DNA from: a virus
DNA length: 36,759 bases
Direction: 5' to 3' (one strand)
Virus record (IMG/VR): IMGVR_UViG_3300020401_000038
Location: 1 to 36,759 of that record
The translations under genes were made by a program, and so were the position numbers. Shown here piece by piece: positions 4,024 to 13,275 of this stretch (within the stretch, counting starts at the first letter, position 1; each line of letters begins with the position of its first letter). The notes below the pieces were generated by a model that searched no databases, was not told the origin of the DNA, and worked only from the letters and a program-made list of their open reading frames with translations.

Positions 4024-4447
4024 AAAGATACATCCATGGCAATTGCCACGTACATGGCATCACATCAAACCTTTAATTGACAAAGCACTAGCACATAGTC
4101 TCGGTGAGCGGCTAGCGTCAGACATGCTCGAAGACTTAATGAACGATCAGCTCTGGATGCTAGCAGGCATCGACGAACAAGGGGACTTGGCTGGAGTAAT
4201 AGTAGCTGAAGAGGTTGTACACGCTCAAAAGAAAGAGCTGTATGTACACGCTTGGGCTACTCAGACTGGCTATGGCTACGATGAATGGGCTGATCTATTT
4301 GAACAGTCACTGTTTGATATAGCATATGACACAGGCTGTCATTATATATCTACAATGTGTCGTAAAGGATTAGCCAAAAAGATGGTAACAAAACATGGAT
4401 GGAATGAATCATATTCTGTCGTAAGTAAACCCGTACCAATGGAGTAA
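4013..4447 (+). CDS. Hypothetical protein, possible GNAT-like fold
   Basis: A 144-aa protein with an AAGG ribosome-binding site just before ATG 4013. The layout (N-terminal helices, GDLAGVIVAEEV strand pair, KKELYVHAWAT strand, a helix, then YISTMCRKGLAKKMVTKHGW) resembles small GNAT acetyltransferases and the acetyltransferase-like proteins found beside the portal genes of other phages. No clear acetyl-CoA loop (R/Q-x-x-G-x-G/A) is present, so activity is uncertain. It precedes the head-assembly block. Confidence 0.72.
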   Translation: MRIEKIHPWQLPRTWHHIKPLIDKALAHSLGERLASDMLEDLMNDQLWMLAGIDEQGDLAGVIVAEEVVHAQKKELYVHAWATQTGYGYDEWADLFEQSLFDIAYDTGCHYISTMCRKGLAKKMVTKHGWNESYSVVSKPVPME

Positions 4448-9649: not shown

Positions 9650-10732
9650 ATGGCAACTATCCAACTCAACAAAGAACTAACTACCAGCAACTGGGAAAAG
9701 TTTTGTGAGTGGGTAACAAGCACCAACAACCGCCTCTATGTGGGGTGGTTCGGTGTTCTTATGATACCTACTTTACTAACAGCAACCACTTGTTTTATAC
9801 TTGCTTTCATCGCAGCACCGCCTGTAGACATTGATGGCATTAGAGAGCCTGTTTCCGGCTCGTTATTATTTGGGAACAACATAATATCAGGAGCAGTCGT
9901 CCCCTCCTCTAACGCAATCGGACTACATTTCTACCCCATCTGGGAAGCCGGCACACTGGACGAGTGGCTATACAATGGCGGACCTTACCAACTCATCGTG
10001 TTCCATTTTTTGATAGGAGTAGCAGCCTATGCTGGAAGACAATGGGAACTATCATACAGATTAGGTATGAGACCTTGGATCTTTGTAGCTTACACAGCTC
10101 CAGTATCAGCGGCTCTTGCTGTATTCCTAGTCTATCCTTACGGACAAGGAAGCTTTAGTGATGGTATGCCTCTTGGTATCTCTGGTACTTTTAACTTCAT
10201 GTTCGTATTCCAAGCAGAACACAATATCCTTATGCATCCGTTCCACATGCTCGGTGTTGCTGGGGTATTCGGTGGAGCTCTTTTCGCTGCTATGCATGGA
10301 AGTCTCGTTACTTCTTCGCTCATTAGAGAAACTACTGGATTGGAGTCTCAGAACTATGGCTACAAGTTTGGTCAGGAGGAAGAGACTTATAATATCGTGG
10401 CTGCTCATGGTTATTTTGGCAGACTAATTTTCCAATATGCAAGCTTTAACAATTCTCGTGCTCTACACTTTTTTCTGGCTGTATGGCCAGTCGTGGGCAT
10501 ATGGCTCACCTCTATGGGGATAGCTACCATGGCATTTAACTTGAATGGTTTTAACTTTAACCAGTCAATATCTGATGCAAATGGTAAGATTGTTCCTACA
10601 TGGGCTGACGTCTTAAACAGAGCCAACCTTGGCTTTGAGGTTATGCATGAGCGTAACGCACACAACTTCCCATTAGACCTAGCAGCAGCTGAGTCTACAC
10701 CTGTAGCTCTTACAGCACCAGCAGTAGGTTAA
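9650..10732 (+). CDS. psbA: Photosystem II D1 protein
   Basis: A complete 360-aa D1 reaction-centre protein that replaces photodamaged host D1 during infection. Numbering here is one above the standard. Key residues are intact: Tyr162 (YZ161), Asp171 (170), Glu190 and His191 (189/190), His199 (P680 ligand 198), His216 and His273 (non-haem iron), Ser265 (QB pocket), His333-Glu334, Asp343 and Ala345. The C-terminal extension after Ala345 is present for CtpA-type processing. The residue equivalent to 130 is Gln, the form associated with low-light D1 isoforms in cyanobacteria. No intron or frameshift is seen. It follows hli with no gap and its stop overlaps the next ORF. Confidence 0.99.
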
Positions 10733-10916: not shown

Positions 10917-11438
10917 ATGTTTACACCACCATATTGGAATCATAAAAATATTAAATTTCCAGAAGAAGAAATGGATACTGTCATTTCACAACTTAAAAAA
11001 CTTCCGTCAAAAAAGTATAAGAATTTTACTAGCTTACACTATAATGATGCACACCCAGAGAAAATTTGGGAAGAAGAATATAAGTTGATTTTGGCTGACT
11101 TACTTACAGACGTTGGTATACATGAAATGTCTAGATACTCATATGTTTTCTGGTCGCAATATTATACACAAAACAGTTCACATTATATCCATAATCATTT
11201 TCACAACTTAATGAATGATATAAGTTTTGTTCATTTTTTAAAAGTAACTGACACTCCTTTATTTAGATTTACAAATTTAGAAGGTGAATACTTTACACCA
11301 CCTAAACAAAATGAAGGTGATTTTATATGCTTTCCTTCGTGGGTATGGCATGAAGTAATCCCTAATGAATCAGATCAAGAAAGATTAGTTGTTTCTGGTA
11401 ATATTAAAATTACTAATATGGATAAATATGAAGAATGA
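10917..11438 (+). CDS. 2OG-Fe(II) oxygenase-like protein
   Basis: A 173-aa protein resembling the small 2-oxoglutarate/Fe(II)-dependent dioxygenases (2OG-FeII_Oxy_5 type) common in cyanophages. Visible features are a His cluster that would supply the first metal ligands (H92, H94, H96), a strand pair (DISFVHFLKV), then GDFICFPSWVWHEVIPN with the distal iron His145, and ERLVVSGNI with Arg156 as the likely 2OG-binding Arg. The substrate is unknown. I chose the ATG at 10917 over a GTG at 10872; no strong ribosome-binding site is evident. The gene is strikingly AT-rich (27 G+C in the 120 bases from 11161), unlike psbA, which points to recent acquisition. It overlaps the next ORF by 11 bases. Confidence 0.72.
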   Translation: MFTPPYWNHKNIKFPEEEMDTVISQLKKLPSKKYKNFTSLHYNDAHPEKIWEEEYKLILADLLTDVGIHEMSRYSYVFWSQYYTQNSSHYIHNHFHNLMNDISFVHFLKVTDTPLFRFTNLEGEYFTPPKQNEGDFICFPSWVWHEVIPNESDQERLVVSGNIKITNMDKYEE

Positions 11439-11859
11439 GTGGTGGTATGATTGTTATCACACAGCTGAAAATAATGATCTAATAGGAAATTGGTGTATTA
11501 CTGAAGATTTAAAAGAAGTTCATTATCTTTTTATGAGAGATATTGCACACCTGTTAACGGAGGAAAGAATAAAATCCGTTAAATTAAAATCTATCGCATG
11601 GAAAAATAAACATAACTTTCCATTTCCTTGGTTAGGTGAACGCTATAATAACGCTGATACAAATTATTTGGGGATTATTACAACTGGACCTAATCCGTAT
11701 GATAATGAATATCGAATGGTTGATGGAAGACGTAGAATACATAAGTTATTATCTAACAAAATTATAGAAAGTAATTTTTATGTCATCGAGTGGGATGAGT
11801 TAAGACCTTTCTTTAAAAGCCACGTCCGTTCATCCCCCTTGGGGACGCATGCAATCTGA
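11428..11859 (+). CDS. ParB-like (DGRRRI-motif) hypothetical protein
   Basis: A 143-aa protein, AT-rich like its upstream neighbour and overlapping it by 11 bases. Residues 97-104 (MVDGRRRI) match the substrate-binding G-x-R/H-R motif of ParB-N/sulfiredoxin-fold proteins. It is preceded by strand-like segments (KSVKLKSIAW, YLGIITTG) and followed by a helix and strand, consistent with that fold. Function is not assignable. The last 11 residues or so (VRSSPLGTHAI) are encoded by the riboswitch sequence, so the natural C-terminus was probably lost or replaced. An upstream in-frame start at 11389 is less likely. Confidence 0.6.
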   Translation: MKNEWWYDCYHTAENNDLIGNWCITEDLKEVHYLFMRDIAHLLTEERIKSVKLKSIAWKNKHNFPFPWLGERYNNADTNYLGIITTGPNPYDNEYRMVDGRRRIHKLLSNKIIESNFYVIEWDELRPFFKSHVRSSPLGTHAI

Positions 11860-11879
11860 CCATGGAACGGGGGTCAGGT
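11826..11879 (+). promoter_or_regulatory. Putative glutamine riboswitch (downstream-peptide class)
   Basis: A compact folded RNA is predicted. CCGTTC (11826-11831) can pair with GAACGG (11865-11870), which lies in the loop of hairpin CTGACC/GGTCAG (11856-11861 with 11872-11877), forming a pseudoknot. A third hairpin, TCCCC/GGGGA (11833-11837 with 11841-11845), sits between. The CGTTCATCC...GGACGCA...GGAACGGGG arrangement is what I recall of the downstream-peptide RNA of cyanobacteria and their phages, a glutamine-binding aptamer. A short YRG-containing ORF begins 3 bases after the element, as expected. The sequence and pairing are seen directly; ligand identity is from family knowledge. Confidence 0.8.
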
Positions 11880-11881
11880 AT

Positions 11882-11950
11882 ATGGACTTTACAATGACTG
11901 TAACTTACGTATATCGTGGCATTGAGTACACAAGAGTAGTTGGTAAATAG
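11882..11950 (+). CDS. 22-aa YRG 'downstream peptide'
   Basis: A 22-codon ORF starting 3 bases after the riboswitch-like element. The product MDFTMTVTYVYRGIEYTRVV (then GK) contains VYRGIEY. This matches the YRGxxY core of the short peptides found downstream of glutamine riboswitches and of the small cyanobacterial DUF4278-type proteins. The GGGGTCAGG of the element may mask or supply the ribosome-binding site, so translation could respond to glutamine. An internal Met5 is an alternative start. Function of this peptide class is not known to me. Confidence 0.72.
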   Translation: MDFTMTVTYVYRGIEYTRVVGK

Positions 11951-12029
11951 GCCACACAGGGAGGTTCGAGTCCTCCCAACTCTCTTGGCTTTTGCCCAGT
12001 ACGCTGGATACCTTAAGCCGTCTAGACGG
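11951..12029 (+). other. Structured leader upstream of capsid gene: T-arm-like hairpin plus three further hairpins
   Basis: Immediately after the YRG peptide stop lies GGGAGG-TTCGAGT-CCTCCC (11959-11977), identical in form to a tRNA T-arm (GGTTCGANTCC). The following AACTCT can pair with AGAGT..T at 11932-11940 like an acceptor stem. The D and anticodon arms are absent, so this is not a normal tRNA. Further hairpins are GGC-TTTT-GCC (11987-11996), CCAG-TACG-CTGG (11996-12007, sharing a base with the previous) and the perfect palindrome CCGTC-TA-GACGG (12018-12029). Possible roles are RNA processing, mRNA stabilisation, or an attachment site derived from a host tRNA. Confidence 0.55.
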
Positions 12030-12102
12030 TGGGATAGACCACAAAAAAAAACGATCGAAAAAAATTCTGTACAGGAAAGCAATATAACCCTTAACCATAA
12101 CA

Positions 12103-13275
12103 ATGGCTCAACAGAATAGCACACTGACCACGGCTCTTACACGCCCCGGTCAATCGAATAGCGCAGGCGACGCCCGTGCCCTTTATTTAAAGCTGTTCAG
12201 TGGAGAGATGTTCAAAGGCTTCCAGCACAACGCAATTGCTAGGGACCTTGTAATGAAGAGAACCTTATCTAACGGTAAGAGTCTTCAGTTCATCTACACT
12301 GGACACACAAAAGCCGAGTATCATACACCCGGTAACAGCATACTAGGTAACACCGATGGTGCACCACCAGTAGCTGAAAAGACAATTACTATTGATGACT
12401 TACTTATCTCTAGTGCATTTGTCTATGAGCTAGATGAAACACTTGCTCACTACGAATTGAGAGGAGAGATTTCCAAGAAGATTGGTTATGCTCTTGCACA
12501 AAAGTACGATAGACTTATCTTTAGAGCTATCGCTAAAGGTGCTAGACAAGCTTCTCCAATTTCTAAGTCAGGCTTTGTAGAGCCCGGCGGAACACAAATC
12601 CGCGTTGGTACTTCTAACCAAGCTAATAACGCATACGACTCAGCAGCTTTAATAGCAGCATTCTATGATGCAGCTGCTGCCCTTGACGAAAAAGGGGTTT
12701 CTACTGACGGTAGAGTCGCTGTGTTAAACCCAAGACAATATTACGAATTGATACAAGCTGTCGGTTCTAACGGTCTTGTTAACAGAGATGTACAAGGTTC
12801 AGCATTACAGTCCGGAAACGGAATCATTGAAATTGCAGGCATCAAGATCTACAAGTCAATGAACATCCCATTCTTCGGATCATATGGTACTAAGTACGGA
12901 ACTGCATCTGCAACAAACCCCGGTGTAGCAGATCCCGGAAACACAGGATCATTCGTTGCAGAGACTGCAGAAGACGGTAGAGCTTCTGTAACAGGTCTTA
13001 ACAACAACTATGGTAACGCTACAGACTTCGCTAACAGCTGCGGACTTATCTTCCAGAAAGAAGCCGCTGGTGTTGTAGAAGCTATCGGACCACAGGTTCA
13101 GATTACTTCTGGTGACGTTTCAGTTGTCTACCAAGGTGACGTGATTCTTGGACGTCTAGCTATGGGTGCAGACTTCTTAAACCCTGCTGCTTGCGTCGAG
13201 CTAATCGCTGGTGCTGCTACTGGATCTACAGGTAACGCTGTATTCGGTAACACATACCCTGCTAACAGCAACTAA
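12103..13275 (+). CDS. Major capsid protein (T7 gp10-like)
   Basis: A 390-aa HK97-fold shell protein; T7 gp10A is 345 aa. Recognisable parts are the N-arm (MAQQNSTLTTALTRPGQ), LYLKLFSGEMFKGFQ, the DLVMKRTLSNGKSLQF segment, the E-loop/spine-helix region and the late DGRVAVLNPRQYYEL strand-helix typical of this family. No frameshifted 10B-type extension is apparent. The gene has a long structured leader rather than a tight junction, and an intrinsic terminator right after it, matching the T7 gene 10 - T-phi arrangement and suggesting very high expression. The nearest purine-rich site (AGGAAAG, about 12073) is distant from the ATG. Confidence 0.96.
   Translation: MAQQNSTLTTALTRPGQSNSAGDARALYLKLFSGEMFKGFQHNAIARDLVMKRTLSNGKSLQFIYTGHTKAEYHTPGNSILGNTDGAPPVAEKTITIDDLLISSAFVYELDETLAHYELRGEISKKIGYALAQKYDRLIFRAIAKGARQASPISKSGFVEPGGTQIRVGTSNQANNAYDSAALIAAFYDAAAALDEKGVSTDGRVAVLNPRQYYELIQAVGSNGLVNRDVQGSALQSGNGIIEIAGIKIYKSMNIPFFGSYGTKYGTASATNPGVADPGNTGSFVAETAEDGRASVTGLNNNYGNATDFANSCGLIFQKEAAGVVEAIGPQVQITSGDVSVVYQGDVILGRLAMGADFLNPAACVELIAGAATGSTGNAVFGNTYPANSN

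Follow-up and report, generated by a model that had tools for sequence, protein, structure and literature searches.

A glutamine-II riboswitch, a YRG mini-gene and an apparently structured leader RNA ahead of the capsid gene of T7-like cyanophages

The riboswitch and its place in T7-like cyanophages

The window, by which we mean the whole stretch of viral DNA that was analysed (36,759 nucleotides; IMG/VR record IMGVR_UViG_3300020401_000038), was assigned by its gene order to a T7-like cyanophage, as an earlier sequence-only reading had proposed. Scaffold, hli, psbA, 2OG-Fe(II) oxygenase and an unassigned ORF are followed by a riboswitch, a short ORF that we call the YRG mini-gene, the capsid gene and the tail tube gene. 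The aptamer had been described as lying beside psbA, but the oxygenase ORF and an ORF of phrog_35149 intervene. The latter (11431-11859; no assigned function) loses its homology at the aptamer, and its final ~10 codons continue through aptamer helix P1. The stop codon of the YRG peptide is followed, 152 nt later, by the start of the capsid ORF at 12103. The riboswitch and its flanking genes are laid out as follows.

9650-10732: psbA
11824..11879, + strand: glutamine-II riboswitch aptamer (RF01704, "Downstream-peptide"; cmscan)
11827-11831 with 11865-11869, + strand: pseudoknot PK, CGTTC with GAACG, plus C11848 with G11870 (sequence against the published structure)
11833-11837 with 11841-11845, + strand: P1 hairpin, TCCCC/GGGGA (sequence; cmscan alignment)
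11854-11860 with 11873-11879, + strand: P2 helix, ATCTGAC/GTCAGGT, enclosing the pseudoknot loop (sequence; cmscan alignment)
12103..13275, + strand: major capsid protein gene (phrog_27239, E 3.4e-86; phrog_267, E 5.1e-83)

The RF01704 match was the sole Rfam match in the window (58.7 bits against a gathering threshold of 33, E 7e-12), and the three helices that had been picked out from the letters, pseudoknot included, are each present. The score and the conservation of the contact bases bear out the proposed membership in a glutamine riboswitch class; the glnA family (glutamine-I, RF01739), named beside it as a candidate, scored 17.1 bits, under its cut-off of 35, and was rejected. The crystal structure that defines the glutamine contacts is that of a Prochlorococcus member of the class (PMC6698751). 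Its pocket bases C1, G2, G18 and C19 correspond to C11827, G11828, G11847 and C11848 of the window, and C39, G40 and G41 to C11868, G11869 and G11870; the closing A33:G42 pair corresponds to A11862:G11871, and G11864 and A11866 take part in a triple. Because all contact bases of that structure are present, glutamine binding by the window aptamer is to be expected and is very likely. By its covariance-model score and contact bases, the aptamer is a genuine glutamine-II riboswitch and adds one more member to a class already known.

In a host, the class has been shown to switch its gene ON with glutamine (PMC6316151, PMC6698751). At the window riboswitch, we saw neither a terminator/antiterminator architecture nor a clear anti-Shine-Dalgarno partner. 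Across all loci, an anti-Shine-Dalgarno helix 5′ of the aptamer scored weakly above chance (mean score 12.1 versus 11.3 ± 0.18) and was clear only in a minority subset, e.g., L017, L012 and L111. In these three loci and in L026 and L118, sequence just 5′ of the aptamer complements the Shine-Dalgarno/start region over 9 to 12 bp, which makes it a candidate expression platform.

A pattern scan of IMG/VR matched at least 120 contigs; the contig sets are samples, so that counts are among the matches listed, and the search patterns favour close matches. Among 153 aptamer loci from the matches listed, the next window-homologous gene 3′ was the capsid gene in 127 of 132 that could be judged, and the placement ahead of the capsid gene that had been pointed out in the window is thus a rule in this phage group. 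The upstream neighbour was psbA in 94 of the 153 loci, hli in 28 and scaffold in 13. Riboswitch and YRG ORF precede the capsid gene in P-SSP7, P-SSP3, P-GSP1, P-SSP10, KBS-P-1A and the uncultured MedDCM S28-C3, in all of which the YRG ORF is unannotated. On the basis of these genomes and contigs, the riboswitch-YRG unit is a standard component of T7-like cyanophages, located before the capsid gene. The pairing itself is of a known kind, since the motif and its short conserved ORFs were described in cyanobacteria and marine metagenomes in 2010 (Weinberg; PMC2864571).

The YRG mini-gene and its host relatives

Among the loci sampled, 145 phage aptamers were followed on their 3′ side by a YRG ORF. 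In the window the mini-gene comprises the following elements.

11885..11887, + strand: weak Shine-Dalgarno GGA for the start at 11894 (sequence; GGAG is the commonest form in relatives)
11894..11950, + strand: YRG mini-gene, probably 18 aa, MTVTYVYRGIEYTRVVGK, with a TAG stop at 11948-11950 (conserved in the 145 phage aptamer loci)

The sequence-only reading had called a 22-aa ORF beginning 3 bases after the aptamer. Such an ORF exists, running from an outer in-frame ATG at 11882 (11882-11950), but the gap is 2 bases and translation probably begins at the inner ATG (11894), because the Shine-Dalgarno of relatives precedes the inner start, because the outer in-frame start is without a Shine-Dalgarno in 42 of 48 cases and because many outer ATGs are not in frame. 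Single-change codon comparisons among relatives gave an omega-like ratio of 0.10, which rose to 0.17 once the selected YRG codons were excluded; these ratios are descriptive, since the pairwise comparisons are not independent. Nonsynonymous change was 6 to 10 times rarer than expected. The low ratio argues that the ORF is coding, and on these codon comparisons the mini-gene is genuine and under purifying selection in relatives.

In a search of bacterial genomes, the aptamer pattern matched many Prochlorococcus and some Synechococcaceae genomes. Host loci with the aptamer encode proteins of ~57 aa with three YRG-type repeats, and the host examples scanned scored 29 to 43 bits against DUF4278 (PF14105), above the Pfam cut-off of 25.3. 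A single YRG repeat was found in 144 of 145 phage peptides. Five phage peptides were scanned, of which three gave sub-threshold DUF4278 matches and two, the window peptide (in its 22-aa form, the 18-aa form being too short for the scan) and one other, gave none; among the four longer peptides scanned, three scored 16 to 23 bits, under the same cut-off. In the glutamine synthetase inactivating factor IF17, DUF4278 spans the N-terminal portion (PMC6316151, PMC6698751). Read from sequence, the phage peptide is one repeat of the three-repeat host DUF4278 proteins.

The leader RNA of the capsid gene

Between the YRG stop codon and the capsid start lies a block that is conserved in 185 sampled loci, some of them retrieved because they matched a pattern written for this block. 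It contributes the core of a longer leader, whose putative elements begin inside the YRG mini-gene.

11932..11986, + strand: likely tRNA-like domain (minimum-energy fold; P0 pairing in relatives)
11932-11936 and 11938-11942 with 11977-11986, + strand: acceptor-like helix P0 of that domain, T11937 bulged
11959..11977, + strand: T-arm-like hairpin GGGAGG-TTCGAGT-CCTCCC (sequence)
11985..12043, + strand: capsid leader RNA core (model R1, 71.1 bits; no Rfam family)
11987..12019, + strand: long-range helix H2, GGCTT 11987-11991 with AAGCC 12015-12019, enclosing H3 (covariation)
11996-11999 with 12004-12007, + strand: H3, CCAG/CTGG, with a UACG loop and a 3′ bulge AUAC at 12008-12011
12018..12029, + strand: first palindrome CCGTCTAGACGG, overlapping the 3′ end of H2
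12029..12042, + strand: H5 hairpin GTGG-GATAGA-CCAC (covaries in relatives: GTAGG/CCTAC, GTGTG/CACAC)
12065..12076, + strand: second, hypervariable palindrome TTCTGTACAGGA, with one U-G wobble

The capsid gene was the next gene in 179 of 179 core copies that could be judged. BLASTN found the block in 30 phage records, all from cyanophages or uncultured marine phages and intergenic where annotated, and scans of the window stretch and of relatives returned no Rfam match for it. Model R1 found one copy in the P-SSP7 genome; in 22 loci of the genome collection, almost all picocyanobacterial, it found none. Across 18 distinct aligned cores, 90% of the cells in H2 and H3 pair, and the covariation score of these helices was 0.331, versus 0.120 ± 0.016 for shuffles and at most 0.082 for slid versions. 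When the inner part of H2 was put to its own swap test, the value was 0.675 versus 0.554 ± 0.013, and in the divergent locus L118 an otherwise invariant H2 pair appears by eye to be flipped (GCCA/TGGC). Single-sequence folding energies of the window leader were not exceptional (z about -1 to -1.4). An alternative core pairing from the single-sequence fold, GTCTA/TAGAC, does not survive in the variants CCGTCATGACGG and GAAAGA and was dropped, and H2, H3 and H5 are preferred for that reason. These results indicate that the leader is apparently a conserved structured RNA with covarying helices, belonging to an RNA family uncatalogued in Rfam. In the part of the literature covered, we found no report of a riboswitch in P-SSP7 or of a structured leader for the capsid gene of cyanopodoviruses; since that coverage is partial, any claim to priority for the leader RNA is tentative.

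Could the block (11985-12043) instead serve chiefly as a promoter recognised by the phage RNA polymerase? It is conserved, single copy and immediately 5′ of the capsid gene, and it contains GGGATAGACCACAA, which resembles the transcript start of T7 gene 10. The compensatory changes in H2 and H3, however, indicate RNA, as do the wobble exceptions in the second palindrome described below, and the block sequence occurs once in the window. We therefore regard a promoter as an unlikely main function. The particular case of a multi-copy phage promoter was rejected, the core motifs being single-occurrence in the window.

Both palindromes vary in sequence while staying self-complementary. The first remains so in its variants CCGTCATGACGG, CCGTATATACGG and CCGTCTATAGACGG and in divergent loci, where it reads CCGTCGACGG, GCCGCGCGGC, AAACCGGTTT, GGGCTTGCAAGCCC or GCGAAAGCTTTCGC. 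The second sits 8 to 47 nt 5′ of the capsid start in relatives, and across 164 distinct leaders it took 48 different sequences, built around 19 different centres. Palindromes that were perfect over 10 nt or more occurred in 79% of these leaders, versus 12.5% of dinucleotide shuffles. The 35 leaders that fell below the 10-nt length, many of them related (~14 distinct sequences by eye), were all rescued by allowing one mismatched pair, and the mismatch was T-G on the sense strand in 28 of the 35 and A-C in none. This one-strand wobble suggests that selection acts on self-pairing of the sense RNA. A double-stranded-DNA binding site is disfavoured as the cause of the palindrome, given the U-G exceptions and the absence of A-C, and given that the palindrome recurred elsewhere in its contig in 1 of 138 cases. 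Because the central bases, which would form the loop of a hairpin, are also self-complementary, dimerisation of the leader RNA through the palindrome would be the simplest reading.

At the 5′ end of the leader, the minimum-energy fold of the window includes a tRNA-like three-way junction, in which P0 is accompanied by a small hairpin carrying the YRG stop codon in its loop and by the T-arm-like hairpin. A T-loop hairpin was found in 75 of 171 loci that could be judged, the window included, and a CACCTC-type hairpin with a CACCTCAGAGTCGGA loop in 94 of the 171. The 75 include L033 and L048, where a match to the Rfam tRNA family (RF00005) covers the position of the domain; L141 looks similar by eye. 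A tRNA-like 5′ module overlapping the end of the peptide gene is a feature of the window and of about 40% of relatives, and the overlap was also noted individually in L121, L068 and L087. The YRG stop lay 11 to 20 nt 5′ of the T stem, within the domain, in 52 of 56 T-loop loci with an upstream YRG. With fixed geometry, P0 had a mean of 5.0 bp versus 3.98 ± 0.14 when strands were swapped between loci, with at least 5 bp in 77% versus 33%; this geometry was picked after examples had been inspected, and the relatedness of the loci was not removed. An unconstrained test was not convincing (5.30 versus a null of 4.99 ± 0.11, null maximum 5.32). Compensatory P0 sets include GAGTA/TACTC, GAATA/TATTC, AAGTGA/TCACTT and AAGTAA/TTACTT. 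Given the unconvincing unconstrained test and the relatedness of the loci, we consider the tRNA-like domain likely rather than proven. A complete tRNA in the window was rejected (ARAGORN, 0 genes; no Rfam tRNA match at the T-arm-like hairpin).

Other elements lie near the leader in some relatives. L118 carries a group I intron (RF00028, 107.6 bits; 4136-4363, − strand) 3′ of the riboswitch, around the capsid region. In L022, an ORF starting MHRSIEWAAGLFEGEG lies just 3′ of the leader core, before the capsid gene, and resembles LAGLIDADG homing endonucleases by eye. A conserved-looking stretch, TGTAAAGCCCGAAGG...GGTTTAAGGAGTGG..., occurs between YRG and the capsid leader in L125, L119, L090, L098 and L118 and is possibly another structured RNA; the Rfam scan of L118, L119 and L125 gave no match for it.

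Proposed mechanism and comparison with known systems

We favour, with a probability of roughly 0.8, a mechanism in which the glutamine-II riboswitch turns ON a YRG mini-protein that serves as a mimic or competitor of DUF4278 proteins, with the leader as a processing or protection module. High glutamine would stabilise the pseudoknot at the expense of a competing fold in which the ribosome-binding site is hidden; the start region would be freed and the 18-residue DUF4278-like mini-protein would then be translated, an ON switch being most likely. The YRG peptide is probably a cut-down mimic or competitor of the glutamine-switched DUF4278 proteins of the host and would go on to act on host nitrogen metabolism. 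The capsid leader RNA is best read as a module for mRNA processing or protection: host tRNA-processing enzymes could cut the tRNA-like domain to leave a capsid mRNA with a structured 5′ end. Such a role would be sensible in P-SSP7-type infections, in which a phage regulator induces host RNase E (PMC9692554).

The sequence-only reading had the riboswitch control the capsid gene, possibly pacing capsid output to host nitrogen. Such control could be transcriptional or run through translational coupling, and the constant placement ahead of the capsid gene and the position of the YRG stop within a structure joined to the capsid leader both speak for it. The aptamer, however, abuts the YRG ORF, and a long structured leader of its own precedes the capsid gene. 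The distance from riboswitch to capsid match ranged from 110 to 1440 nt and exceeded 600 nt in 24 of 127 loci (~19%). In L040, an intrinsic-terminator-like hairpin, GAGCAGTC-ACACG-GCTGCTCTTTTT, appears by eye immediately 3′ of the YRG stop, with an additional ORF between it and the capsid gene, and no terminator/antiterminator architecture was seen. The long gaps and the L040 hairpin weaken direct pacing of capsid output, and the obvious target of the riboswitch is the YRG mini-gene rather than the capsid gene; we consider capsid control improbable.

The two modules may nevertheless interact. On reaching the YRG stop, a ribosome would overlie part of the tRNA-like domain, which makes coupling conceivable; that translation of the YRG gene is in fact coupled to the capsid leader in this way is a speculation to which we give little weight. 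Similarly doubtful is an integrated model in which the capsid mRNA leader consists of a tRNA-like domain, built from the final codons of the glutamine-switched mini-gene, a covarying core and hypervariable palindromes selected for self-pairing as RNA (leader dimers), and in which glutamine-dependent YRG translation would unfold the domain and so alter processing, stability or dimerisation. Least probable is that the phage acquired the cassette from its host as a mere passenger, still binding glutamine and of little use to the phage: the aptamer is common in host genomes and the phage peptide is far shorter than the host protein, but the YRG ORF is under purifying selection and the cassette keeps a near-constant location across a diverse set of phages, beside hli or the scaffold gene where its neighbour is not psbA.

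The hosts of T7-like cyanophages are the commonest photosynthesisers of the ocean, and a glutamine sensor fixed by the capsid gene offers a direct experimental handle on whether phage production reads the nitrogen status of the host. The one-repeat phage peptide may reveal the role of the unexplained host DUF4278 proteins. The signature of the leader, nearly always self-complementary and often different in sequence, makes RNA dimerisation in the mRNA of a DNA phage testable. The riboswitch class and its short ORF were already known; the folded capsid leader RNA, absent from Rfam, appears to be new.

Known tRNA-like structures include the tRNA domain of tmRNA, viral TLS and MALAT1-type RNAs, and the T7 leader has processing sites. 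With these the window shares a T-loop hairpin, an acceptor-like helix and a position before the capsid gene, but its acceptor helix is shortened, one hairpin replaces the D and anticodon arms, and the putative domain is joined to a new core RNA and draws no tRNA call from ARAGORN or Rfam. With picocyanobacterial DUF4278 proteins (PF14105) and the N-terminal part of IF17 (gifB), the phage peptide has the YRG[VI]xY core in common, and the riboswitch class upstream of the DUF4278 proteins matches its own; it differs in having one repeat where the host proteins have about three and, in the window, in lying below Pfam detection. Glutamine-I (glnA, RF01739) riboswitches, reported from other marine phages (PMC9004378, PMC9964418), bring the same ligand class into phage with a fold that differs from that of the window aptamer. 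The window element agrees with known glutamine-II riboswitches (RF01704, which includes Yfr6 of Prochlorococcus) in sequence, pseudoknot, ligand-contact bases and a short ORF directly 3′; in contrast to these, the phage ORF is a single YRG repeat (13 to 51 aa), and the phage unit precedes the capsid gene and adjoins an apparently structured leader.
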